Shown here: piece by piece, positions 1,401-46,896 of the stretch
Layout: every line of letters starts with the position of its first letter
Numbering within the stretch: the first letter of the stretch is position 1
IMG/VR virus record: IMGVR_UViG_3300017963_001986
Coordinates: 1 to 47,437 of that record
DNA length: 47,437 bases
Source of the DNA: a virus
Reading direction: 5' to 3' (one strand)
Position numbers and translations under genes: made by a program
Notes under the pieces: generated by a model
Told to the model about the DNA's origin: nothing
Seen by the model: only the letters and a program-made list of their open reading frames with translations
The model's database searches: none

Positions 1401-1471
1401 ATATCAACAACACAGAAAACCTTCGATGGGTGGTATAGGTTAAACCCTGATTTTTCAGGAGAGGTGAAAAT

Positions 1472-1905: not shown

Positions 1906-1934
1906 TTGACATTGAAATAAATAAGTATTATTAT
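1906..1934 (+). promoter_or_regulatory. sigma-70 promoter of the capsid gene
   Basis: TTGACA (1906-1911), a 17-base spacer, then TATTAT (1929-1934). The -35 box sits in the 13-base string TTGACATTGAAAT, which is also found at 20538 and 29400 and with one change at 29829. Confidence 0.8.
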
Positions 1935-20322: not shown

Positions 20323-20536
20323 GGAAATGCGGGCTGTTTCAACCAATTATATTATTTGTCAGGATCAAGTTGAAAAATTAGAAAAAAAATGTACTATACA
20401 GAGTAATATGATTGAATTGAAAAATGAACAACTCGAAATTATCGAGGAGTCAACGGACATAAAATATTATATCGGTGCAGGGTTGTTATTCTTAGGTGAG
20501 GTGATAATTATACTCGGAATAATAATTATAATTTAG
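20210..20536 (+). CDS. secreted, C-terminally anchored protein nested with the Rz-like gene
   Basis: 108 residues. A signal peptide (residues 1-26, ending in SKPVNA before ETN), a periplasmic helical part with two cysteines (ICQDQVEKLEKKCT), and a C-terminal membrane span (residues 89-108: GAGLLFLGEVIIILGIII). There is no lipobox cysteine. The layout is like a unimolecular spanin but without lipid attachment; the nested position is like Rz1. GGAG lies about nine bases before the ATG. A lysis role is inferred. Confidence 0.5.
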   Translation: MQTITKILLLMMILMLFAGTSKPVNAETNVFVPKSLVKEMRAVSTNYIICQDQVEKLEKKCTIQSNMIELKNEQLEIIEESTDIKYYIGAGLLFLGEVIIILGIIIII

Positions 20537-20537
20537 C

Positions 20538-20565
20538 TTGACATTGAAATCCATCTTTTTATATT
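20538..20565 (+). promoter_or_regulatory. sigma-70 promoter of the small RNA
   Basis: TTGACA (20538-20543), 16 bases, TATATT (20560-20565). The -35 region has the TTGACATTGAAAT string shared with the capsid promoter. Start is expected near 20572. Confidence 0.8.
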
Positions 20566-20571
20566 TAAACT

Positions 20572-20651
20572 TTCAGGTGCAATCGTGTTACCTACACTAT
20601 GACACACGCACCAATTCACCTCTGAGGGCGGGTTGATCCCCGCCCTTTTTT
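20572..20651 (+). ncRNA. putative small RNA with an anti-Shine-Dalgarno segment
   Basis: About 80 bases between its own promoter and a strong terminator, with no open reading frame. A 5' bulged hairpin pairs GGTG (20576-20579) with CACC (20609-20612) and CGTGT (20584-20588) with ACACG (20604-20608). A single-stranded segment AATTCACCTCT (20613-20623) follows, then the terminator hairpin. That segment is the exact complement of AGAGGTGAATT, the ribosome site of the genes at 20753 and 22955, and also shares TCACCTC with the usual 3' end of 16S rRNA. Hairpin, exposed seed, terminator is the standard layout of bacterial regulatory RNAs. Confidence 0.65.
20625..20651 (+). terminator. intrinsic terminator of the small RNA
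   Basis: GGGCGGG (20626-20632), a 6-base loop, CCCGCCC (20639-20645), with A20625-T20646 extending the stem, then TTTTTT. Confidence 0.9.
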
Positions 20652-20677: not shown

Positions 20678-20705
20678 TTGACTTTTTCTATAATAGTGTT
20701 ATATT
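20678..20705 (+). promoter_or_regulatory. sigma-70 promoter of the regulator/pentapeptide unit
   Basis: TTGACT (20678-20683), 16 bases, TATATT (20700-20705). Start near 20712. Confidence 0.8.
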
Positions 20706-20731: not shown

Positions 20732-20752
20732 ATAAAAATTGAGAGGTGAATT

Positions 20753-20962
20753 ATGAAAACATTGAATGTGAGTGACGAAGTGCATAACTCGATACTGATG
20801 GCAAGCAAAAAGACAGGATTGCAGATTAACAAGTTGGTTGAGTTATTAGTTACTGTCAACCTTAACTGGATGAATAACCCTGTTAAAGTTGGGGAAAAAA
20901 TGGCAATGGTAACAGTAGGCAACATCAAAGATGCATTTTCAAAAAGTGAGGAAACAAGATGA
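20753..20962 (+). CDS. ribbon-helix-helix-like regulator
   Basis: 69 residues. MKTLNVSDEVHNSILMASKK with a following helix (LQINKLVELLVTVNL) matches the ribbon-helix-helix pattern of small phage repressors and antitoxins. A perfect AGAGGTGAATT ribosome site precedes it. The last 39 bases (20924-20962) are shared almost exactly with the region before the second pentapeptide gene, as part of a tandem duplication. Likely an autoregulator acting at the inverted repeat at 20712. Confidence 0.55.
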   Translation: MKTLNVSDEVHNSILMASKKTGLQINKLVELLVTVNLNWMNNPVKVGEKMAMVTVGNIKDAFSKSEETR

Positions 20963-21392
20963 AAAAACAAATCAAAATAGTATCAAGATTCAATAGTGAT
21001 GAAGTATTAGTATGCGGTAAATATGAAAGTGTGAAAGACTATGTAGAGAAAAACGGTGCAGACTTGGAAGGTGCAGACTTGAGAGGAGCAAACTTGGAAG
21101 GTGCAGACTTGAGATATGCAAACTGGGAAGGATTAAAAAAAATATTACGACAACAATGAGTTTTTATTTGAGATAGTAGAAAGAAATAACAATAAATTTA
21201 CAGTTAAAGAACTCGATAAAATTTCTCAAGCCTATATGAATGATTGGTGTTGGGATAAAATCAAAGAGGCATTTTCAAAAAGTGAGGAAACAAGATGAAA
21301 AAACAAATTAAAATAGTATCAAGATTCGATAGTGATGAAGTATTAGTATGCGGTAAATATGAAAGCGTTAAAGATTGTGTAGAGAAAAACGG
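20924..21392 (+). repeat. tandem duplication, unit 336 bp
   Basis: The 133-base stretch 20924-21056 recurs with few changes at 21260-21392, offset 336 bases. It covers the end of the regulator gene and the start of the pentapeptide gene. The junction lies in ATCAAAGA, which occurs in the regulator end (20924), in the junction (21260) and in the pentapeptide C-terminus (21685), pointing to recombination at short homology. Confidence 0.8.
20959..21298 (+). pseudogene. first pentapeptide-repeat gene, frameshifted
   Basis: The open frame ends after 66 residues at 21159. It holds about five pentapeptides (ADLEG, ADLRG, ANLEG, ADLRY, ANWEG). After a run of eight A (21135-21142) the +1 frame continues with YYDNNEFLFEIVERNN to [10 protein letters not shown], homologous to the C-terminus of the gene at 21295, then ends with the regulator's tail AFSKSEETR at 21298. 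One fewer A would give an intact protein of about 112 residues, so this is a single-base frameshift, or less likely ribosomal slippage. Confidence 0.7.
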
Positions 21393-21777
21393 AGCCAACC
21401 TTCGTGGAGCCAACCTTCGTGGAGCCAACCTTTACGGAGCCAACCTTCGTGGAGCCAACCTTTACGGAGCCAACCTTCGTGGAGCCAACCTTTACGGAGC
21501 CAACCTTCGTGGAGCCGACCTTTACGGAGCCAACCTTCGAGGAGCCAACCTTCGAGAAGCAAAGAATTATTATGATAACCATCAATTTTTCCATGAAATA
21601 GTCAGAAGAAACAACGACGAGTTTACAATTAACGAACTTGGTAAAATAACAAAAGTAATTATGAATGATTGGTGTTGGGATAAAATCAAAGATGTTAAAT
21701 CCTCATTAACGATTTTAAAGAAAGTTGAAAGGTTAGGTTATGATGAATATTTAAAAAGATTTAAGGGGGAGATTTAA
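21295..21777 (+). CDS. pentapeptide-repeat protein
   Basis: 160 residues. A 32-residue N-terminal domain ([20 protein letters not shown]) leads into eleven perfect pentapeptides ([10 protein letters not shown]) at residues 33-87, then a C-terminal helical domain ([20 protein letters not shown]). Pentapeptide repeats form a right-handed quadrilateral helix that can mimic DNA, as in gyrase inhibitors; whether that applies is unknown. The gene overlaps the regulator-derived end of the pseudogene by ATGA. The repeat is coded by almost identical 15-base units. Confidence 0.75.
21391..21555 (+). repeat. 11 x 15-bp in-frame tandem repeat
   Basis: Eleven units of GGAGCCAACCTTCGT or GGAGCCAACCTTTAC. 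After the first two, the units mostly alternate, giving a 30-bp higher-order period. They are contiguous and in frame, so this is not a CRISPR array. Confidence 0.9.
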
Positions 21778-22910: not shown

Positions 22911-22938
22911 TTGACTTTTGAGTTGAATATATTATAAA
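22911..22938 (+). promoter_or_regulatory. sigma-70 promoter of the exonuclease gene
   Basis: TTGACT (22911-22916), 16 bases, TATAAA (22933-22938). Almost identical over about 30 bases to the promoter at 23803, including an AACTT...AGTT dyad around the -35 box. Confidence 0.75.
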
Positions 22939-22954
22939 TTAAAAGAGGTGAATT

Positions 22955-23806
22955 ATGAAAAATTATATTATTGATGCGTATGGTGCGATATATACGTCTT
23001 ACTATTCGTATATAACAAAACCGATATTCAATTTAAAAGGTGAAAACGTATCTGCGGTTTTCGGGTTTATGGAAACTTTATTGAAATTGATTAAGACGTT
23101 TGATCCTGAAAATCTGGTTATGTGTTTTGACTGCGGTAAATCTGAATACAGGAAAGAATTATACGAAAATTATAAGGCAAACAGAAAACCTATGCCGGAT
23201 GATTTACGTGGTCAGATTGACACTATAAAAGAACTAATTAAATTTATGGGTATTAAAATCGTTGAAGAAAAAGGATTTGAAGCTGACGACACAATGGCTT
23301 ACATTTCCAAAGAGTTGGCAAAAAAAGATGTTGAGTCTTTTATCTTGACAAGGGATAAGGATTTATTCCAATTGATTAATGACAAAATCAAAATACTCCG
23401 GATTTATCATGGAGAGTTTGAAATATTAGACACAGAGTTTGTTATTAATAAGTATGGTTTTTTTCCTAAAAATATTGTTGACTATTTATCCCTGTTAGGT
23501 GATTCATCTGATAATATCAAGGGCGTTCGTGGAATAGGTGAAAAATACGCCACTCAATTGGTAACATATTATAGCACACTCGATAATATTTATGAGTCGA
23601 TTGATTCCATTGAAGACAAAATCAAGAAAAAACTTATTGATGGGAAAGAAGATGCTTATTTTTCAAAGAAACTGGTCGAGCTGAATTTGGACGTTCCGAT
23701 CGATGTTGATTTAAACGATTATAAATTTGATGGTATCGACAACGAAAGTATGATTGACAAGTTAAAAGAAAAAGACATAGGGTCATTAAAAGAATATTTA
23801 ACTTGA
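22955..23806 (+). CDS. 5'-3' exonuclease (PolA N-terminal/FEN type)
   Basis: 283 residues. Metal-binding acidic motifs of the family are all visible: YIIDAYG (4-10), CFDCGKSEYRKELY (57-70), GFEADDTMAY (105-114), ILTRDKDLFQL (128-138), LLGDSSDNIKGVRGIGEKYA (183-202), the last also being the helix-hairpin-helix DNA-binding part. It degrades 5' ends and flaps, for replication or host DNA turnover. No polymerase domain is attached. It has a perfect AGAGGTGAATT ribosome site, the predicted target of the small RNA at 20572. Confidence 0.9.
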   Translation: MKNYIIDAYGAIYTSYYSYITKPIFNLKGENVSAVFGFMETLLKLIKTFDPENLVMCFDCGKSEYRKELYENYKANRKPMPDDLRGQIDTIKELIKFMGIKIVEEKGFEADDTMAYISKELAKKDVESFILTRDKDLFQLINDKIKILRIYHGEFEILDTEFVINKYGFFPKNIVDYLSLLGDSSDNIKGVRGIGEKYATQLVTYYSTLDNIYESIDSIEDKIKKKLIDGKEDAYFSKKLVELNLDVPIDVDLNDYKFDGIDNESMIDKLKEKDIGSLKEYLT

Positions 23807-24334: not shown

Positions 24335-24346
24335 AGAGGTGAAAAA

Positions 24347-25239: not shown

Positions 25240-25255
25240 ATTTGAGGTGTATATT

Positions 25256-26395
25256 ATGAAAGTAATGAAAGGAAAATATAACATTGCAAAAATAATGATT
25301 GATGATATTGATGAAACAACAAAAGAGCAAATACAAGGATTCTTAAATCATCCAGCATTTAAAGGAAAACCGATTGTGATAATGCCAGACTGTCATGCTG
25401 GGATGGGTAGTTGTATAGGATTTACAATGCCATTGAATGATTATGTTATTCCTAATATCGTTGGTGTTGATATTGGTTGTGGTGTGTTGAGTTGTAATAT
25501 TGGTCATGTGGATGTCGACTTGAAAAAACTTGATGAATTCATAAGAAATAATATTCCGCATGGATTCAAAGTACATGATAAACCTAAATATAATGACAAT
25601 TTTTTAATACCAACAATGTCGAGAATATCTGACTCAATAGACTCTAATTATGATAGAAATTGTAAATCAATAGGGACTTTAGGCGGTGGGAATCATTTTA
25701 TAGAACTTGGAATTGATGAAGATGATAATAAATGGTTAACCGTTCATACGGGTAGTAGAAAGTTTGGACTTGACGTTGCTAATTATCATCAACAAAAAGC
25801 CAAAGATTTATTTGATACTATGTTTATAAATAAATCTGATTATAACAAACTTGAATTTTTGCCTTATGATATTGGTGGATTTGATTACATAAAGGACATG
25901 AGGGTTGCTCAACAATTTGCAACGGTTAATAGAAAAATGATAATGGACACAATGTTAAAGTATTTGCTTAATATGGAAATACCTATTGTATTAGAAGATG
26001 TTGAATCCGTCCACAACTTTATAGATTTCAAAGATAAGATTATTCGTAAAGGTGCTGTAAGTTCTTACGAAAATAAAAAATTAATCATACCATTTAACAT
26101 GGAAGATGGCTTAATCATAGGTGTTGGAAAATCAAACCCTGATTGGAACTATTCAGCACCTCACGGTGCTGGTCGTGTTTTATCAAGGAAACAGGCAAAA
26201 CTTAAACTCAATTTAGACGATTATAAAAGGTCTATGGACGAAAAAGGCATATACACTACCTCGTTAAACAAAGAAACGCTTGATGAGGTCAAAGGTGCAT
26301 ATAAAAATAAGAACTTAATAATTAATGCAATAAAAGAAACAGTTGACATTAAACATTTTGTTAAACCATTGTATAATTTCAAGTCTAAAAAATAA
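25256..26395 (+). CDS. rtcB: RtcB-type RNA ligase
   Basis: 379 residues from ATG 25256, which has GAGGTG in front; an upstream GTG overlaps the ribosome site. All key motifs are present: MPDCHAGMGSCIGF (43-56, metal-binding Asp and Cys), VGVDIGCGVLSC (69-80), GTLGGGNHFIE (140-150), VHTGSRKFG (163-171), SAPHGAGRVLSRKQAK (300-315) with the His that is guanylylated in known RtcB. RtcB joins 2',3'-cyclic phosphate and 5'-OH RNA ends, for example in cleaved tRNA. A phage tRNA gene follows 38 bases downstream. Confidence 0.95.
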   Translation: MKVMKGKYNIAKIMIDDIDETTKEQIQGFLNHPAFKGKPIVIMPDCHAGMGSCIGFTMPLNDYVIPNIVGVDIGCGVLSCNIGHVDVDLKKLDEFIRNNIPHGFKVHDKPKYNDNFLIPTMSRISDSIDSNYDRNCKSIGTLGGGNHFIELGIDEDDNKWLTVHTGSRKFGLDVANYHQQKAKDLFDTMFINKSDYNKLEFLPYDIGGFDYIKDMRVAQQFATVNRKMIMDTMLKYLLNMEIPIVLEDVESVHNFIDFKDKIIRKGAVSSYENKKLIIPFNMEDGLIIGVGKSNPDWNYSAPHGAGRVLSRKQAKLKLNLDDYKRSMDEKGIYTTSLNKETLDEVKGAYKNKNLIINAIKETVDIKHFVKPLYNFKSKK

Positions 26396-26396
26396 C

Positions 26397-26424
26397 TTGA
26401 CTTTTTTAGTTTATTGTGTATATT
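26397..26424 (+). promoter_or_regulatory. sigma-70 promoter of the tRNA unit
   Basis: TTGACT (26397-26402), 16 bases, TATATT (26419-26424). The start, near 26431, is nearly the first base of the tRNA. Confidence 0.8.
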
Positions 26425-26432
26425 AAAGTATA

Positions 26433-26505
26433 CTGGATGTGCGTGAGAGGTTAAACGGCTCGGCTTGGGACCGAGAAATCGCAGGTTCGAATCCTGCCAT
26501 CCAGA
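26433..26505 (+). tRNA. tRNA-Pro (anticodon UGG)
   Basis: 73 bases. Acceptor CTGGATG (26433-26439) pairs fully with CATCCAG (26498-26504), discriminator A. D-stem CGT/ACG; anticodon stem CTCGG/CCGAG with loop CTTGGGA, so the anticodon is TGG; T-stem GCAGG/CCTGC with loop TTCGAAT. The CCA end is not encoded, so it relies on host CCA addition. It reads proline codons CCA and, by wobble, CCG. Confidence 0.95.
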
Positions 26506-26521
26506 CTTAAGAGGTGGAAAA

Positions 26522-26689: not shown

Positions 26690-26706
26690 GTTTATGAGGT
26701 GAATAT

Positions 26707-27837
26707 ATGAAAGAAAAATTAAATGAATTAATCAAAGAACTTGAAACAATGGACGTTGACGAAAAAATGGAAGCGTTAAACAATATTAAAATCAAGTTGC
26801 ATGAAATAAGTCCAATGAAAGACGAACCTGTTGATTGTGTTATATGGGTTAAAAATGACAAAGTTCAAGCAAATACATATAACCCGAATAAAGTCGCACC
26901 GCCCGAAATGGAATTATTAAAAATATCAATAATGGAAGACGGGTATACTCAACCTATTGTAGCATATCCAGTTGATGATTATATAGAAGTTGTTGATGGG
27001 TTTCATAGGAATAGAGTGGGAAAAGAGTGCAAAGAAGTAGAACAACGTGTTAAGGGATATTTGCCTATAGTGTCAATCAGACAAGAGAAGACAGGTAAGA
27101 ATGAACGTATTGCATCTACGATTAGACATAATAGAGCAAGAGGTAAACATCTTGTTGATGCCATGTCTGAAATTGTACTTGAACTTAAAAACAGGAACTG
27201 GAAAAATTCACGTATTAGTCGTGAACTCGGAATGGATGAAGAAGAAATTTTAAGATTATGTCAGATTAGTGGTTTAGAAGATGTATTTAAAGATGAAGAC
27301 TTTTCTAAGTCATGGAATGTTGAAGACAGTCAGGAAGACTTTGAGCCATTGACAGATGAATTGGATAATCAGGAAGTCGAAGAAAACAATTTTCGTACTG
27401 TTAATACAAGTGATCCACAAAGAATTTTTCACACATACGACAAATGGGAATGTTACAAAGCTGGATTTTATGATACTGCAAAAGACGGCTTCACAGCAGA
27501 ACAATTAGAGCAACAAATGGCTGAGTTTTTATGTGATGACAATGCTTTTAGAGAAGCCTTAGAACATGTTATTACAGAATGGAAACACTCATGCGAACAT
27601 TATTTAACTAATAAAGCAATGAACCGTATAGCGTGGTTAGGTCAAGCTTCTACATGTTATGCAAAAGGTATACCGTCAAAATTTCGTGGTGGATGGTTCT
27701 TATTAAATGATGAACAACAGGATAAAGCCAATAATACTGCTTATGAATATTTGAATAAGTGGTTAAAAAATAATGGCTATGAAGAAATAAGTTTTGACGA
27801 AGCAATGAGTATTGGTAGACAGGTGGAAATATACTAA
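26707..27837 (+). CDS. ParB/IbrB-like protein
   Basis: 376 residues. Residues 50-110 have the ParB/sulfiredoxin-type nuclease-fold pattern: VQANTYNPNKVAPPEMELLK, then DGYTQPIVAY, and VVDGFHRNRVG. Residues 140-200 form a helix-turn-helix-like part (MSEIVLELKNRNWKNSRISR). A separate C-terminal domain (about 240-376) is helical and Trp/Cys-rich. It overlaps by one base the PAPS-reductase-like gene; this gene pair matches the IbrB/IbrA (YbdM/YbdN) pair known from E. coli and prophages, where it affects gene regulation by an unclear mechanism. Confidence 0.7.
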   Translation: MKEKLNELIKELETMDVDEKMEALNNIKIKLHEISPMKDEPVDCVIWVKNDKVQANTYNPNKVAPPEMELLKISIMEDGYTQPIVAYPVDDYIEVVDGFHRNRVGKECKEVEQRVKGYLPIVSIRQEKTGKNERIASTIRHNRARGKHLVDAMSEIVLELKNRNWKNSRISRELGMDEEEILRLCQISGLEDVFKDEDFSKSWNVEDSQEDFEPLTDELDNQEVEENNFRTVNTSDPQRIFHTYDKWECYKAGFYDTAKDGFTAEQLEQQMAEFLCDDNAFREALEHVITEWKHSCEHYLTNKAMNRIAWLGQASTCYAKGIPSKFRGGWFLLNDEQQDKANNTAYEYLNKWLKNNGYEEISFDEAMSIGRQVEIY

Positions 27838-29051
27838 TGAATATAAAACAATATCAGAAAGAAAATGTTTTACAGGCTTCACGGGACAGAATAAGTAAAA
27901 TTTTTGACGATTTTGAACGTGTGTATATAAGTTTCTCAGGTGGAAAAGACAGTTCTGTAATGACTCATTTAGTAATGGATGAAGCAATTAAAAGAGATCG
28001 TCAAGTTGGATTACTTATTATAGACCTTGAAGCTCAATATTATGATACTATAAAACATGTTGAACACATGGTTGAGTTATATAAAGATAATATTGATTTA
28101 CATTGGGCCTGTCTGCCTCTATTATTAAGAAATGCAGTTTCTAATTATGAACCACGCTGGACGTGTTGGGATAGTGACAAAAAGGACGTTTGGGTTCGTG
28201 ATATGCCAGAATGTGCAAAAACCGAAAAAGATTATCCGTTTTTTATTCCAAAAATGGAATTTGAAGAATTTATGGTCTTATTTGGAAAATGGTATTCACA
28301 GGGGAAGCGGACTGGTGCATTTATCGGTATACGAGCAGATGAAAGTTTGCATCGGTATAGAGCAATTGCAAGCAGAAAAGAGGGACTACTTCATAAAGAT
28401 TATAAATGGACTACAAAAATATCTAAAAATCTTTATAATATATATCCTATTTATGACTGGAAAACTGAAGATATTTGGGTCTATCATGGTAAATATAGAA
28501 ATAAACCACATAATGAGATATATGATAAAATGAATATGGCCGGAGTTAAATTAAGTCAACAAAGATTATGCCAACCATATGGTGATGATCAAAGACGTGG
28601 ATTATGGTTATATCATATATTAGAACCTGAAACATGGTACAAAGTAGTAGCACGTGTTAATGGCGTAAATAGTGGTGCTTTGTATGTTCGTGAGAACGGA
28701 AATATGACAGGATATAATAAAATAACAAAGCCAGATGGTCATACATGGCAGAGTTTTTGTAATTTGTTGTTAAAGACTATGCCTAAAAAAACAAGGGATC
28801 ATTATTTTTTTAGGTTCAAAAAGTTTATTGCTGGATGGAAAGATAGAGGTTATAATTGTATTCCAGACGAAGCACCTATAGAACTTGAAAATAAATGCTG
28901 GTGTCCGTCATGGCGTAGAATGTGCAAGGTTATTCTGCGTAATGATTATTGGTGCAAGGGTCTTGGCCAGACTCAACCAAAATCAGAAGCATATAAAAAG
29001 TTTAAAGCCATTCAATTAGAACGAAGGAAAAAGAAAAATGAAAAAAGGTGA
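27837..29051 (+). CDS. PAPS-reductase-like/IbrA (DUF3440) protein
   Basis: 404 residues. PP-loop SFSGGKDSS (32-40) binds the ATP or PAPS phosphate; LIIDLEAQYYDT (61-72) and FIGIRADESLHRYRAI (161-176) are conserved parts of the PAPS-reductase fold. The C-terminal half, with DUF3440-type sequence, ends with a Cys/Trp cluster (ENKCWCPSWRRMCKV), possibly metal-binding. It is paired with the ParB-like gene. Adenylation or sulfur transfer to DNA, RNA or a protein is possible, but the reaction is not known. Confidence 0.75.
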   Translation: MNIKQYQKENVLQASRDRISKIFDDFERVYISFSGGKDSSVMTHLVMDEAIKRDRQVGLLIIDLEAQYYDTIKHVEHMVELYKDNIDLHWACLPLLLRNAVSNYEPRWTCWDSDKKDVWVRDMPECAKTEKDYPFFIPKMEFEEFMVLFGKWYSQGKRTGAFIGIRADESLHRYRAIASRKEGLLHKDYKWTTKISKNLYNIYPIYDWKTEDIWVYHGKYRNKPHNEIYDKMNMAGVKLSQQRLCQPYGDDQRRGLWLYHILEPETWYKVVARVNGVNSGALYVRENGNMTGYNKITKPDGHTWQSFCNLLLKTMPKKTRDHYFFRFKKFIAGWKDRGYNCIPDEAPIELENKCWCPSWRRMCKVILRNDYWCKGLGQTQPKSEAYKKFKAIQLERRKKKNEKR

Positions 29052-29364: not shown

Positions 29365-29431
29365 TTAAGGCCGTTAAAAACGGCAATATAAAATAAAATT
29401 TGACATTGAAATAAAAAAGAGAGGTGAAAAA

Positions 29432-29828: not shown

Positions 29829-29857
29829 TTGACATCGAAATCTAATTGTATTACTAT
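29829..29857 (+). promoter_or_regulatory. sigma-70 promoter of the structured RNA
   Basis: TTGACA (29829-29834), 17 bases, TACTAT (29852-29857). Start is expected near 29864. The upstream box is one change from the TTGACATTGAAAT string. Confidence 0.7.
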
Positions 29858-34850: not shown

Positions 34851-34878
34851 TTGACTTTTAATTTTAATATTATATGAT
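34851..34878 (+). promoter_or_regulatory. sigma-70 promoter giving a near-leaderless mRNA
   Basis: TTGACT (34851-34856), 16 bases, TATGAT (34873-34878). The start near 34885 lies about three bases from the ATG at 34888. Confidence 0.7.
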
Positions 34879-34887
34879 ATACCATGT

Positions 34888-37140
34888 ATGAAAATTACAT
34901 TCACAGAAAAACAGGAAGATACATTTTATATCGGTCCACGTCGATTGATGTTTCGACCGATGGAAACAAAAAACGAGTCTTCAGAAATTTGTCGATTACT
35001 GTTGGAAAAAAATCCATACAGGGGGTTAGAATTGGATAAGAGTCAAATATCACATATTCAAAAAACGCCAACAGATGTTATAATTGTCATGAAAGACGGA
35101 ACTATAATCAAACAGAGAAAACCTGAAGAAATAAAATATGAAAAAATCGTTCAAAAAATGGATAGAAACAAATTGCAGATTGCATTTTTTATGAAAAATA
35201 TAACGTCGCATTATTCAGGCGGTAGATACTGGGCGTGGTTATTGGCTCATATTATCGGTGAAGATCAAAATACTCAGGTTACGATAATAACAAATACAAT
35301 GCCTCCGTTCGGAGATAGTTTTCGTGAATACGAAAATGTTTTTATTTATTTGGCAGATAAAAATACAGATGTTACAAATATGGGGCGGTATATTCCGTAT
35401 AACGTTTTCGATTATGTTATAGGGGTTCCGATTGAGGGTGGAGTGTCTGCTGAATTGTACGCGAAAAAATGGAAAATCCCATATGCCTGCATGATATATG
35501 AGACGCCGAATTTTGTTCGTGATTATCGAGAGGGTTCAGACTCTAAAGACACATCATTTCAACCATATAGACAACCTATGTTTGACTGTAATGTGTTAAT
35601 CAATAATACTGAAATAGGAAAAGAATACGCCGATAAATGGCTCGGTTTTGTTACTGATAATAATGGCAATACTATTGAAACAGGGTTTGACAAATCAAAA
35701 TCAAAATGGTTATGGAACAGCACAAATACAAAAGTTATTGATAGTGTTGAACAGGAAGCAAATTCGGATCCAAAAACAAAACATGTTATATATATTGGAC
35801 GTGCTGTCACATTCAAAAGACAAATGCATATTGTAAAGGCGTTAAATCAGATAAAAAAATATAACTGGATTATTCATGTGATTAGCGGTGGCGCGAATAG
35901 TTTAGTTCAGGAAATGAAAAATCAGGCTCAAGGGCATGTTTCGATTGAATATCATTCTAAAGTTGATGATTATGAAAAATTCAGAATATTAAAAAAATGT
36001 GATTTGATGTTTTGGTTGACTAATTTTGAGGGATTCGGGATTCCGGCGATGGAAGCTATGCTTTGTGAAAAGATTTGTATATCTTATGAACTGCCGATAT
36101 TGAAACATATTTATGAAAATCATATAGTTTATTGTGATAGAAATAATATTGATGATGTTGTTAAGGCAACAAGAAAATGGATTAAAGACAGTCCTGAAAA
36201 AACAAAATTTATTCAGGAAGCAAAAGATCACGCTTTGAAAATTGCAGATCATGACAGAGTGCAAAAAGATTTTTTTGAATTAATCGGTCGAGAAAAAATA
36301 CAGGAGAAAAAAACTATATCGATATTACATGGAAAAAATCGTTATACTTTTGGGATGATTGTTTGTAACGGAGAGCAGTTTATATACGATAATTTAAAAC
36401 ATATATATGATGTTGCAGATCAGATTATTATTGTTGAGGGTGCTGTTAATGAATTACGTCCATTGATAGGATCATGTACATCTACCGACAGGACTTTGCA
36501 GGTTGCACGTGATTTTATAAACGATTATGATCGAAAAAATAAAAAAATAAAATTATTTACCAGTTCAGATCAAGACGATTGCTGGAACAGTAAAATGGAA
36601 ATGCAAAATCTGATTGCAGAGAATACTGATTGCGAATATTATATAAAACAGGATGTTGATGAATTTTATAATCTTTCAGGATTAATGGGCGAAATATTGA
36701 AATTATCAGAGCAACCGAATAAGATAATGATTAATTACCCGTCGTATCATTTTTGGGGTGACATTAATCATGTAATTAAAGGCGCAAATTTTAACGACAA
36801 ACAAACGAGAGTTTGGAAATGGAATAAAAATTACAGGCATCAAAAAACGTTTAATGTTTTTGTTGACATTAAAACAGGTAATCCGGTCGGCCCGAACAGT
36901 GCCAATACTATCACAGCAGAAGATCATATATTTCATTATTCGTATTTGTATACTAATTACATAAGAAAAACCATTTTGAAATATTATGAAAAAAGGGATC
37001 TTGGTAGTCATTCAGATGTATATGATGCGTTTATGTATCAGGATCCGTCGAGGTTGAAAGACGGTCGTTATGTTGTCGAGGTTGATTTAAAACATCCAAT
37101 TTCAGATGAGCTGTTAAAAAAATATATGAGAGGTAGATAA
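34888..37140 (+). CDS. two-domain glycosyltransferase (GT4-like plus GT2-like)
   Basis: 750 residues. After a 90-residue N-terminal part, residues 90-470 resemble a GT4-type enzyme (HVIYIGRAVTFKRQMHIVKA near 290, FEGFGIPAMEAMLCEK near 380). Residues 475-700 resemble a GT2-type enzyme (FGMIVCNGEQFIYDNL, then IIIVEGAV, and KQDVDEFYN as the metal site). Fusions of two transferases usually build a two-step glycan. The substrate is unknown. No ribosome site is visible and the promoter lies just upstream. It opens the glycan cluster. Confidence 0.8.
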   Translation: MKITFTEKQEDTFYIGPRRLMFRPMETKNESSEICRLLLEKNPYRGLELDKSQISHIQKTPTDVIIVMKDGTIIKQRKPEEIKYEKIVQKMDRNKLQIAFFMKNITSHYSGGRYWAWLLAHIIGEDQNTQVTIITNTMPPFGDSFREYENVFIYLADKNTDVTNMGRYIPYNVFDYVIGVPIEGGVSAELYAKKWKIPYACMIYETPNFVRDYREGSDSKDTSFQPYRQPMFDCNVLINNTEIGKEYADKWLGFVTDNNGNTIETGFDKSKSKWLWNSTNTKVIDSVEQEANSDPKTKHVIYIGRAVTFKRQMHIVKALNQIKKYNWIIHVISGGANSLVQEMKNQAQGHVSIEYHSKVDDYEKFRILKKCDLMFWLTNFEGFGIPAMEAMLCEKICISYELPILKHIYENHIVYCDRNNIDDVVKATRKWIKDSPEKTKFIQEAKDHALKIADHDRVQKDFFELIGREKIQEKKTISILHGKNRYTFGMIVCNGEQFIYDNLKHIYDVADQIIIVEGAVNELRPLIGSCTSTDRTLQVARDFINDYDRKNKKIKLFTSSDQDDCWNSKMEMQNLIAENTDCEYYIKQDVDEFYNLSGLMGEILKLSEQPNKIMINYPSYHFWGDINHVIKGANFNDKQTRVWKWNKNYRHQKTFNVFVDIKTGNPVGPNSANTITAEDHIFHYSYLYTNYIRKTILKYYEKRDLGSHSDVYDAFMYQDPSRLKDGRYVVEVDLKHPISDELLKKYMRGR

Positions 37141-38795: not shown

Positions 38796-39863
38796 ATGAA
38801 AATAGTATTCAGTATAGATAACAAACGTAATAAGTTCATGGGTTATGAATCCGACAAACTCGGCGGTGCGTGGTATGTATCAATCAAGTTATGTAAAGAA
38901 CTGGCAAAACTCGGACACCGTGTCTATTCGTTTCAGAATTGCCCTAATGAAGACCCTCAAGGTGAAATGGTTGACGGTGTTAAAGTCGTTCATAGAAAAT
39001 ATTTAAAAGACTTTTTGAGTAAATCTCAAGTTGATGTATATGTCGGTCAAAGAGAAATTCCGATTGTACGGAAAAGATATAATATAAAACAGGTTTATTA
39101 TCATCTACATAACACACCCATGGCAGAACATCCGGGGAAACTACTGGAATGGTTGAAAATTGGAGCGATTGACAAGGTGATTTTCGTTAGTCAATGGCAT
39201 AGCGATTTAGCAAAAAAAATACCGGCACATCAAAAATATGTCATTCCGAACGGTACAGAAAAATTGACAGTCAAAGGACGCAAAAAAAAGAACCGTATAA
39301 TATGGGCTTCAAATCCGACAAGGGGTTTGAAAGTGTTGGCAAAAGAAATATTTCCAGAGGTTAAAAAACAAATACCGAAAGTTGAGTTGCATGTTGCTGG
39401 CGGTCATTCGATTTATGACAGGACACCGAACGAAGCAAATGGACAGGATAAAAAAGATTATTCATGTTTGTATGATGGTGATAAACTGAAAGACGGAATG
39501 TTTCATCATGGTGTATTGAATCAACAGGAACTCGCACAATTCATGCATGATGGGACTTTGTTGGTTTATCCATTGACAAACCGGAGTGAAACAGGCAGCA
39601 TAATAACCGTTCAATCTCAAATGTACTTGACGCCGTGTATAGTCAAGAATGAGTGTGTTTTTCCTGAATTGGTTAACGTGTCAAGAGGTATGGTTTTAAA
39701 TAATCTTGATGTTAATATGTGGATTACGACAATTGCAAATATGCTAAAAGACAACGAACTTTACAAATCAAAAAAAGACGGTTGTAAAAAATGGCGTTCA
39801 AAATACGAATGGAAAAACATAGTAAAAAATGTTGACAAGGATTTTCGGGGGTTTGTTAAATGA
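38796..39863 (+). CDS. GT4-type glycosyltransferase
   Basis: 355 residues. KLGGAWYVSIKLCKELAKLGH (25-45) is the sugar-acceptor loop and helix; IIWASNPTRGLKVLAKEI (about 169-186) and the late GSIITVQSQMYLTPCIV (about 268-284) mark the nucleotide-sugar side. The order suits GT-B retaining enzymes. A GGTGG ribosome site precedes it. Its stop codon overlaps the upstream part of the leader module at 39860. Confidence 0.8.
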   Translation: MKIVFSIDNKRNKFMGYESDKLGGAWYVSIKLCKELAKLGHRVYSFQNCPNEDPQGEMVDGVKVVHRKYLKDFLSKSQVDVYVGQREIPIVRKRYNIKQVYYHLHNTPMAEHPGKLLEWLKIGAIDKVIFVSQWHSDLAKKIPAHQKYVIPNGTEKLTVKGRKKKNRIIWASNPTRGLKVLAKEIFPEVKKQIPKVELHVAGGHSIYDRTPNEANGQDKKDYSCLYDGDKLKDGMFHHGVLNQQELAQFMHDGTLLVYPLTNRSETGSIITVQSQMYLTPCIVKNECVFPELVNVSRGMVLNNLDVNMWITTIANMLKDNELYKSKKDGCKKWRSKYEWKNIVKNVDKDFRGFVK

Positions 39864-39912
39864 GTATAATAAATAAAAATGGAACCCTGGGGTTCCAAAC
39901 GAGGTGAGAAAT
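39860..39912 (+). promoter_or_regulatory. leader module, copy 1
   Basis: TATAAT at 39865-39870 (weak -35), then a leader with hairpin GGAACC, loop CTGG, GGTTCC (39881-39896) and GAGGTGAGAAATG. The stretch is almost identical to copy 2 at 40098. Confidence 0.6.
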
Positions 39913-40080: not shown

Positions 40081-40108
40081 TTGACTTTTCATTCGTAATG
40101 AGTATAAT
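40081..40108 (+). promoter_or_regulatory. sigma-70 promoter
   Basis: TTGACT (40081-40086), 16 bases, TATAAT (40103-40108). Start near 40115, four bases before a 16-base perfect palindrome. Confidence 0.85.
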
Positions 40109-40151
40109 AAATAAAAATGGAACCCCGGGGTTCCAAACGAGGTGAAAAAAT
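40098..40151 (+). promoter_or_regulatory. leader module, copy 2 with 5' hairpin
   Basis: GGAACCCCGGGGTTCC (40119-40134) is a perfect palindrome at the very 5' end of the mRNA, followed by AAACGAGGTGAAAAAATG. Copy 1 at 39860 differs at a few positions only. A 5'-terminal stem usually protects mRNA from 5'-end-dependent decay. Confidence 0.65.
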
Positions 40152-44855: not shown

Positions 44856-45226
44856 TGGCATACGACAACCTATTAGCAAAATATATTCATATCAAATGTG
44901 GTCGAGAATGTGAAATCTGCGGTACCGAATACCCAGACGAAACATACATAATGCCAGTTCATATATTCGGCAAAGGCGCATTTCCTAAGTTGCGGTATAT
45001 TGATGATAATATTGTCGGCGGGTGTGACGATTGTCATAAAGGACTTGACGAAAATAAGAACAATTCACAGAAACTAATAAAAAAACGAGTAGCACAAATA
45101 AAAGGGTTTAAAACATACGAACATTTAGAAGAACATCTTTATATATTAAACCGTAATTTACCGCTGGTTAAGAATCAGAATGTCAAAGAATCTATAAATA
45201 AACAAATTAGAGAGGTGAATAAATGA
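44855..45226 (+). CDS. HNH/NinG-like nuclease
   Basis: 123 residues from ATG 44855 (an upstream TTG is not needed). CEICGTEYPDET (19-30), IMPVHIFGKGAFP with the first His, and DDNIVGGCDDCHKGLDE with CxxCH give the two zinc knuckles and HNH core as in NinG/Rap-type recombination nucleases and other HNH proteins. A phage recombination role is likely. Confidence 0.6.
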   Translation: MAYDNLLAKYIHIKCGRECEICGTEYPDETYIMPVHIFGKGAFPKLRYIDDNIVGGCDDCHKGLDENKNNSQKLIKKRVAQIKGFKTYEHLEEHLYILNRNLPLVKNQNVKESINKQIREVNK

Positions 45227-46447: not shown

Positions 46448-46576
46448 GGGATCGGACAAACTCGGTCTATGGTACGGTGAATAGGTAGGCTATTCGGTTG
46501 AGTGCATCTTTTAAGCCTATACAATAGATGTAGATTAGATGGGTTGCAAGAGTGGGGAATCCTTGCCCGTACCATT
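46448..46576 (+). ncRNA. structured RNA with a tRNA-like cloverleaf
   Basis: No reading frame. ATGGTACGG (46469-46477) pairs with CCGTACCAT (46567-46575), nine pairs, closing three arms: GAATAG/CTATTC (46479-46484 with 46490-46495, loop GTAGG), GCATCT/AGATGT (46504-46509 with 46526-46531), and GCAAG/CTTGC (46546-46550 with 46562-46566). The last arm is directly stacked on the closing stem, as the T-arm is on the acceptor. A T-rich stretch follows. It lacks a TTCRA loop and any regular anticodon arm, so it is not a working tRNA. It starts about six bases after the sigma-70 -10 box at 46442. Confidence 0.6.
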
Positions 46577-46598
46577 TTATATTACATAGGAGGTGAGT

Positions 46599-46763: not shown

Positions 46764-46773
46764 GAGGTGAATT

Positions 46774-46896
46774 ATGGAATATAGAGAAGATATTTATCCT
46801 AATTGTAATGATATTGATAAGTTTAGGAATGATTGGAATTATAAAAAAATATTTAAAAAGAAATGGTATTCATTTTTACTGTTTTGGAGGAGGTGA
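46774..46896 (+). CDS. small basic protein
   Basis: 40 residues with a perfect GGAGGTGAATT in front. It starts acidic (MEYREDIYPN) and ends basic and hydrophobic (KKIFKKKWYSFLLFWRR). Its last codons provide GGAGGAGG, the ribosome site of the next gene. Not recognised. Confidence 0.45.
   Translation: MEYREDIYPNCNDIDKFRNDWNYKKIFKKKWYSFLLFWRR

Follow-up and report, generated by a model that had tools for sequence, protein, structure and literature searches.

The window analyzed here represents an entire viral contig (47,437 bases, 33% GC), and all of the genes followed in it lie on the plus strand. Head and tail genes are succeeded by a lysis block ending at position 20536 and then by early-type genes, including those for SSB, a 5'-3' exonuclease, RtcB, a ParB-like protein and an IbrA-like protein. 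The stretch separating the final gene of the lysis block from gene 20753 (genes are named by their start positions) contains the putative small-RNA unit described below (Table 1). A second record, IMGVR_UViG_3300017971_000588 (G001), represents the same phage, with 99.97% identity over 6 kb, and adds 11.7 kb upstream of the window that includes the terminase and portal genes. No integrase or antirepressor was recognized among the genes examined, which are part of the full gene set.

Several anatomical features proposed for the unit in the initial annotation have held up under closer inspection. The consensus promoter placed ahead of it reads TTGACA-16-TATATT, with matches at 11 of 12 positions, and is among the best in the interval from 18 to 24.5 kb. 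The terminator, described as strong, has a stem of nine pairs at 20624-20647, seven of them GC, with a T run after it. The unit does lack a reading frame, as the sole internal ATG frame spans eight codons (20600-20626) and has no Shine-Dalgarno (SD) sequence. The 80-nt RNA has a predicted fold of -29.8 kcal/mol (z = -4.95), in which the segment AATTCACCTCT, hereafter called the seed, is the sole long unpaired stretch between the stems and is predicted to be 0.97-1.0 unpaired per position (over 96%). An Rfam search with the unit yielded no family at the gathering threshold, and the best sub-threshold matches are unrelated; the near-misses Termite-leu and SraG were dismissed because their scores lie below threshold. 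DNA and protein searches of annotated phages with the unit and with gene 20753 gave no match. To judge from the Rfam search, the RNA belongs to no named RNA family.

Table 1. Coordinates of the unit, its potential targets and related promoters in the window
Feature	Position	Strand	Basis or comment
Promoter of MCP, sharing the TTGACATTGAAAT element of the unit promoter	1906..1934	+	sequence
Unit promoter, TTGACATTGAAAT...TATATT; its 13-mer TTGACATYGAAAT is common to the MCP and portal promoters	20538..20565	+	sequence, repeat counts
Putative small RNA, ~80 nt	20572..20651	+	start from promoter spacing, end from terminator (both inferred)
Hairpin 1, GGTGC...GCACC plus inner stem	20576..20612	+	folding, z about -3 for hairpin 1 alone
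Unpaired seed AATTCACCTCT, 11 nt, complement of phage RBS AGAGGTGAATT	20613..20623	+	sequence and predicted folding
Intrinsic terminator, GAGGGCGGG-loop-CCCGCCCTT plus T run	20624..20651	+	sequence and folding
Early-class promoter of gene 20753, CTTGACTTTT-16-TATATT; its transcript lacks the seed	20678..20705	+	sequence
Target 1, SD region AGAGGTGAATT of gene 20753, 11-nt perfect match, -16.4 kcal/mol	20742..20752	+	sequence and pairing energy
First early gene, 69 aa	20753..20962	+	most fold matches (weak E-values) are to ribbon-helix-helix proteins such as CopG, Arc and PutA
Early-class promoter of gene 22955; predicted start ~22944-22946, so that the mRNA would begin at the SD	22911..22938	+	sequence
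Target 2, SD region AGAGGTGAATT of gene 22955, 11-nt perfect match, -16.3 kcal/mol; roughly the entire predicted 5' UTR	22944..22954	+	sequence and pairing energy
5'-3' exonuclease gene (PF02739/PF01367)	22955..23806	+	domains
Weaker 9-nt target ahead of gene 1472	1460..1468	+	
Weaker 9-nt target ahead of gene 24347	24335..24343	+	
Weaker 9-nt target ahead of the ParB-like gene 26707	26696..26704	+	
Weaker 9-nt target ahead of gene 29432	29420..29428	+	
Weaker 10-nt target ahead of a short ORF	45211..45220	+	
Weaker 10-nt target ahead of the ATG at 46774	46764..46773	+	

The perfect complementarity reported between the seed and the sequences before genes 20753 and 22955 was confirmed as 11 exact nucleotides at both ribosome-binding sites (RBSs), and the matches of 9-10 bases claimed at further genes are found at six sites (four of 9 nt and two of 10 nt). 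At the two perfect sites, a generic 16S rRNA tail pairs with an energy of -11.7 kcal/mol, as opposed to -16.4 and -16.3 kcal/mol for the seed. Because the transcript of gene 22955 is predicted to begin at about its SD, the seed would cover the whole leader. The product of gene 20753 has no Pfam or PDB sequence match; the matches of its predicted fold to ribbon-helix-helix repressors are consistent though statistically weak, and on this structural model the protein is probably a ribbon-helix-helix regulator.

The distribution of the matches does not support the earlier suggestion that such an RNA might shut off phage translation in bulk, since the strong ones are confined to non-structural genes. 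About 10 genes match the seed by at least 8 nt, and none of these is a structural or lysis gene. Matches of at least 7 nt occur at 9 of 42 non-structural genes and at 0 of 22 structural or lysis genes (Fisher p = 0.022), a bias that may partly reflect SD strength, given that the generic 16S tail shows a weaker trend in the same direction, with less stable pairing at the RBSs of structural genes (p = 0.055).

Two repeated promoter types are present in 59 kb, with sites in the window at 1373, 1906, 20538, 20678, 22911, 23803, 26397, 33142, 34851, 40081, 46415 and 29829. Early-type operons are preceded by CTTGACTTTT-16-TATAAT, and the early-operon promoter element CTTGACTTT has 11 copies in 59 kb where 0.17 would be expected. 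The 13-mer TTGACATYGAAAT has 5 copies in 59 kb (0.025 expected), among them the promoters of the unit, of the major capsid protein (MCP) gene and of the portal gene, the last of which was found in the 99.97% identical contig G001. The unit promoter carries TTGACATYGAAAT, as do the major-capsid and portal promoters, and is without the TTGACTTTT of early promoters. This points to an RNA that is likely made late, when the structural genes are on. However, TTGACATYGAAAT is also found outside the structural block, at 29829 and at 29400 (the latter without a -10 box), which makes the "late" class not secure. The two promoter types perhaps constitute a timing signal or an operator.

Relatives of the phage provide some information about conservation. 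A search of IMG/VR with the pattern AATTCACCTCTGAGG returned 13 stretches, only one of which holds the unit; this carrier is the same phage at 99.97% identity and is therefore silent on conservation. Scans with the exonuclease, the full MCP and RtcB brought up no relatives of use, and genome contigs gave distant capsid matches only. Two-row and three-row alignments of the MCP and a tail protein uncovered the relatives G002, G003, G055 and G056, and a five-row alignment scan added no further ones. The lysis/early junction was compared in the three divergent relatives G003, G055 and G056, with G002 being too short to reach the locus. G003, which shares ~50% amino acid identity with the window phage and is syntenic up to the lysis genes, has in its 3' UTR at this junction ATTTCCTCCGAT directly before a terminator. 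The anti-SD CCTCCGAT found there differs from the window seed and complements ATCGGAGG of the first early gene of G003, although one other gene equals this one in match length and a further gene has a slightly better pairing energy. Because the G003 junction has no clear promoter of its own and no hairpin 1, only the cis form is common to both phages. At the same junction, G055 and G056 have neither an anti-SD segment nor a terminator. The initial annotation would have been refuted by a seed that is base-paired and not conserved, and the outcome on this point is mixed: the seed is predicted to be unpaired, but an equivalent exists in only one of the three divergent relatives, where bases are changed on both partners.

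The reading preferred here, to which somewhat less than an even chance is assigned, is that an ~80-nt small RNA would be made late and would pair with early-gene RBSs both in trans and, on read-through mRNA, in cis. Its action as a regulator of the phage's own RBSs is supported by the predicted anatomy, the modeled energetics and the promoter class. From the promoter, terminator, unpaired seed, complementarity and promoter subclass read or predicted from sequence, and from cis pairing predicted in two phages, we infer that the RNA is made, when it is made and that it represses.

Alternatively, the complementarity might have arisen by chance or be secondary, in which case the locus would be a late-operon terminator accompanied by an incidental promoter, or else a small RNA whose real targets are host mRNAs or something else. 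The length of the match is unremarkable on its own, as 41 of 1184 plus-strand 80-mers carry a complement of at least 11 nt to some RBS, and for this reason match length was dismissed as a sign of non-chance. The lack of conservation of the layout in G055 and G056 also favors this explanation. The argument against chance resides in the SD-core complement. On the plus (coding) strand of the 59 kb, TCACCTC has just two copies, and CACCTCC, ACCTCCT and CCTCCTT have none. Given this near-absence, an SD-core complement within the 80-nt unit is unusual (p ~0.003, uncorrected for the look-elsewhere effect). The TCACCTC copy in the unit lies in the sole long free stretch of the RNA. The full AGAGGTGAATT occurs three times in the window (the seed on the minus strand and the SDs at 20742 and 22944), where 0.05 would be expected, and three copies were reached by no shuffle. 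A differently spelled anti-SD at the same place in G003 likewise speaks against coincidence. Overall, a chance or secondary origin is unlikely, but it is a contender that deserves serious weight.

Both the preferred reading and a further alternative involve transcripts that read through the terminator. On such RNAs, the predicted pairing of the segment with the SD is 0.966 for the window phage and 0.979 for G003, and when the unit was swapped for other phage sequence, equal hiding of the SD was obtained in 0 of 300 cases (window) and 2 of 198 cases (G003). The SD of gene 20753 is predicted to be 0.03 unpaired on the long RNA versus 0.59 on the leader alone; the corresponding predictions for G003 are 0.02 and 0.58, with a longer G003 leader already structured (0.105). 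On these models, the element common to the window phage and G003 is a pairing of the end of the late operon with the RBS of the first early gene. Similar devices are known for T4 gene e and I-TevI, in which a helix sequesters the SD on long transcripts and the SD is free on those from the near promoter (PMC3014915), and the same trait is seen in prediction for the window SD. In T4, however, the timing is reversed, with early transcripts reading through into later genes, so the cis device in the window would be a mirror image. Moreover, the T4 helix is local, whereas here the arms are ~120-270 nt apart and the terminator lies between them.

The segment might even matter solely on read-through mRNA, where it would fold onto the first early gene's SD to prevent expression of early genes from late transcripts, with the terminated 80-nt RNA being a by-product. 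This proposal benefits from the pairing predicted in both phages, from the fit of the complement to the adjacent gene in both, from a G003 junction without a clear promoter of its own, and from the precedents of T4 genes e, soc, 49 and I-TevI (PMC3014915). Yet the strong promoter and independently stable hairpin of the window unit would be needless for a cis device, gene 22955 bears the same 11-nt complement despite having its own promoter, and the terminator should make read-through rare. Action exclusively in cis is regarded as unlikely, to about the same degree as a chance or secondary origin.

In 16S rRNA, h45 precedes CACCTC, and the unit has a hairpin and a 4-nt linker before the same bases. 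The likeness to the 16S rRNA 3' end noted in the initial annotation is real for the seven bases TCACCTC but does not extend to the linker and hairpin. An anti-SD mimic or decoy, which would imitate that 3' end and bind ribosome-associated factors or mRNAs generally, is very improbable, because the resemblance stops at those seven bases short of the full anti-SD, the hairpin loop and stem are unlike h45, Rfam gave no match with rRNA families included, the bases flanking the core (AATT, T) fit the phage RBS and not 16S rRNA, and the G003 anti-SD is without such a hairpin.

If the preferred reading of a late RNA acting in trans and in cis is correct, the RNA would be produced from a promoter of the capsid/portal subclass when structural genes are on, and its exposed AAUUCACCUCU would pair with the SD-to-start region of early genes to block 30S loading. 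The block would be strong at gene 20753, encoding the probable ribbon-helix-helix regulator, and at the exonuclease gene 22955, and weaker at about six others, with the outcome that early translation would be lowered late in infection. In cis, the same segment would mask the gene 20753 SD on transcripts that pass the terminator, and transcripts from the early promoter at 20678, which are without the segment, would stay translatable. The addition of a promoter and hairpin in the window phage might have converted an element acting in cis into a free RNA that could also act on further early RBSs with this signature.

The small RNAs c4 (P1/P7) and sar (P22) are phage-encoded and block translation of a phage gene by pairing around its RBS (PMC12197685). 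Like these, the unit encodes a putative phage RNA complementary to a phage RBS (11 nt perfect at genes 20753 and 22955), and by its sequence it is a discrete unit with its own promoter and terminator, as this type requires. Unlike c4 and sar, which act on one gene (ant) in lysogeny/immunity control, the window seed is complementary to multiple unlinked early genes, and among the genes examined no lysogeny module was recognized. The unpaired C-rich segment directed at mRNA SDs also recalls the C-rich sRNAs of Gram-positive bacteria, RsaA and RsaE/RoxS, of which RsaA masks the mgrA SD (PMC3961350). However, these RNAs are bacterial and have C-rich motifs of other sequence, whereas the window seed fits the phage RBS through the base before the start codon, and the unit has no Rfam match to described families of this type. 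In its proposed multi-gene breadth, the RNA would resemble T4 RegA, a single factor that represses many mRNAs by occupying their initiation regions (PMC3014915), although RegA is a protein and the proposed factor is an RNA.

A more ambitious version of the preferred reading would make this one small RNA, with its complement to the phage's own early-class RBS and its structural-gene promoter, a multi-target translational off-switch for early genes and an RNA counterpart of T4 RegA, with this segment blocking early translation on read-through late mRNA as well. This version is doubtful in its entirety. If true, an RNA recognizing an RBS signature common to early genes would help to set the early-to-late switch, which would then not depend on protein or transcription alone. 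The changes on both partners between the window phage and G003 would then suggest RNA-target co-evolution, and a search rule would follow, namely to screen strands in which SD-core complements are otherwise avoided for copies lying between late promoters and terminators.

A number of other features were observed. Predicted transcription starts coincide with the SD or start codon, or lie just a few bases away, at 22911-22957, 34851-34890 and 40081-40119, leaving predicted leaders of 2-3 nt from the 34851 and 40081 promoters and the SD alone from 22911. A 53-nt direct repeat (96%) at 39859-39911 and 40097-40149 holds a -10 box, the 18-nt palindrome TGGAACCCCGGGGTTCCA and the RBS GAGGTGA, and a candidate structured leader at 46450-46585 was folded and showed no significance. 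Pentapeptide-repeat genes stand in tandem at 20959-21777, with near-identical starts at 20959 and 21295; a third copy is located upstream of the terminase gene in the sister contig (L024), and G001 ends inside that repeat. An RtcB RNA ligase gene is followed by a tRNA-Pro(TGG) gene (25247-26506), possibly forming a tRNA-repair pair against host anticodon nucleases. Positions 26707-29051 contain the ParB-like gene and an IbrA-like PAPS-reductase gene, whose product shares 65.8% identity with a counterpart in Microcystis phage Mwe-JY13. Finally, the lysis/early junction of G055 (IMGVR_UViG_3300033150_001986) carries on its minus strand a 77-nt tmRNA-like RNA (L153:7762-7838) that scores 54.3 bits against RF00023 (gathering threshold 47) and was not called by ARAGORN. 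Both tRNA-like halves are present, and ~308 model positions, corresponding to the mRNA-like region and pseudoknots, are missing; this RNA could be a decoy, a mini-tmRNA or the remnant of an attachment site.
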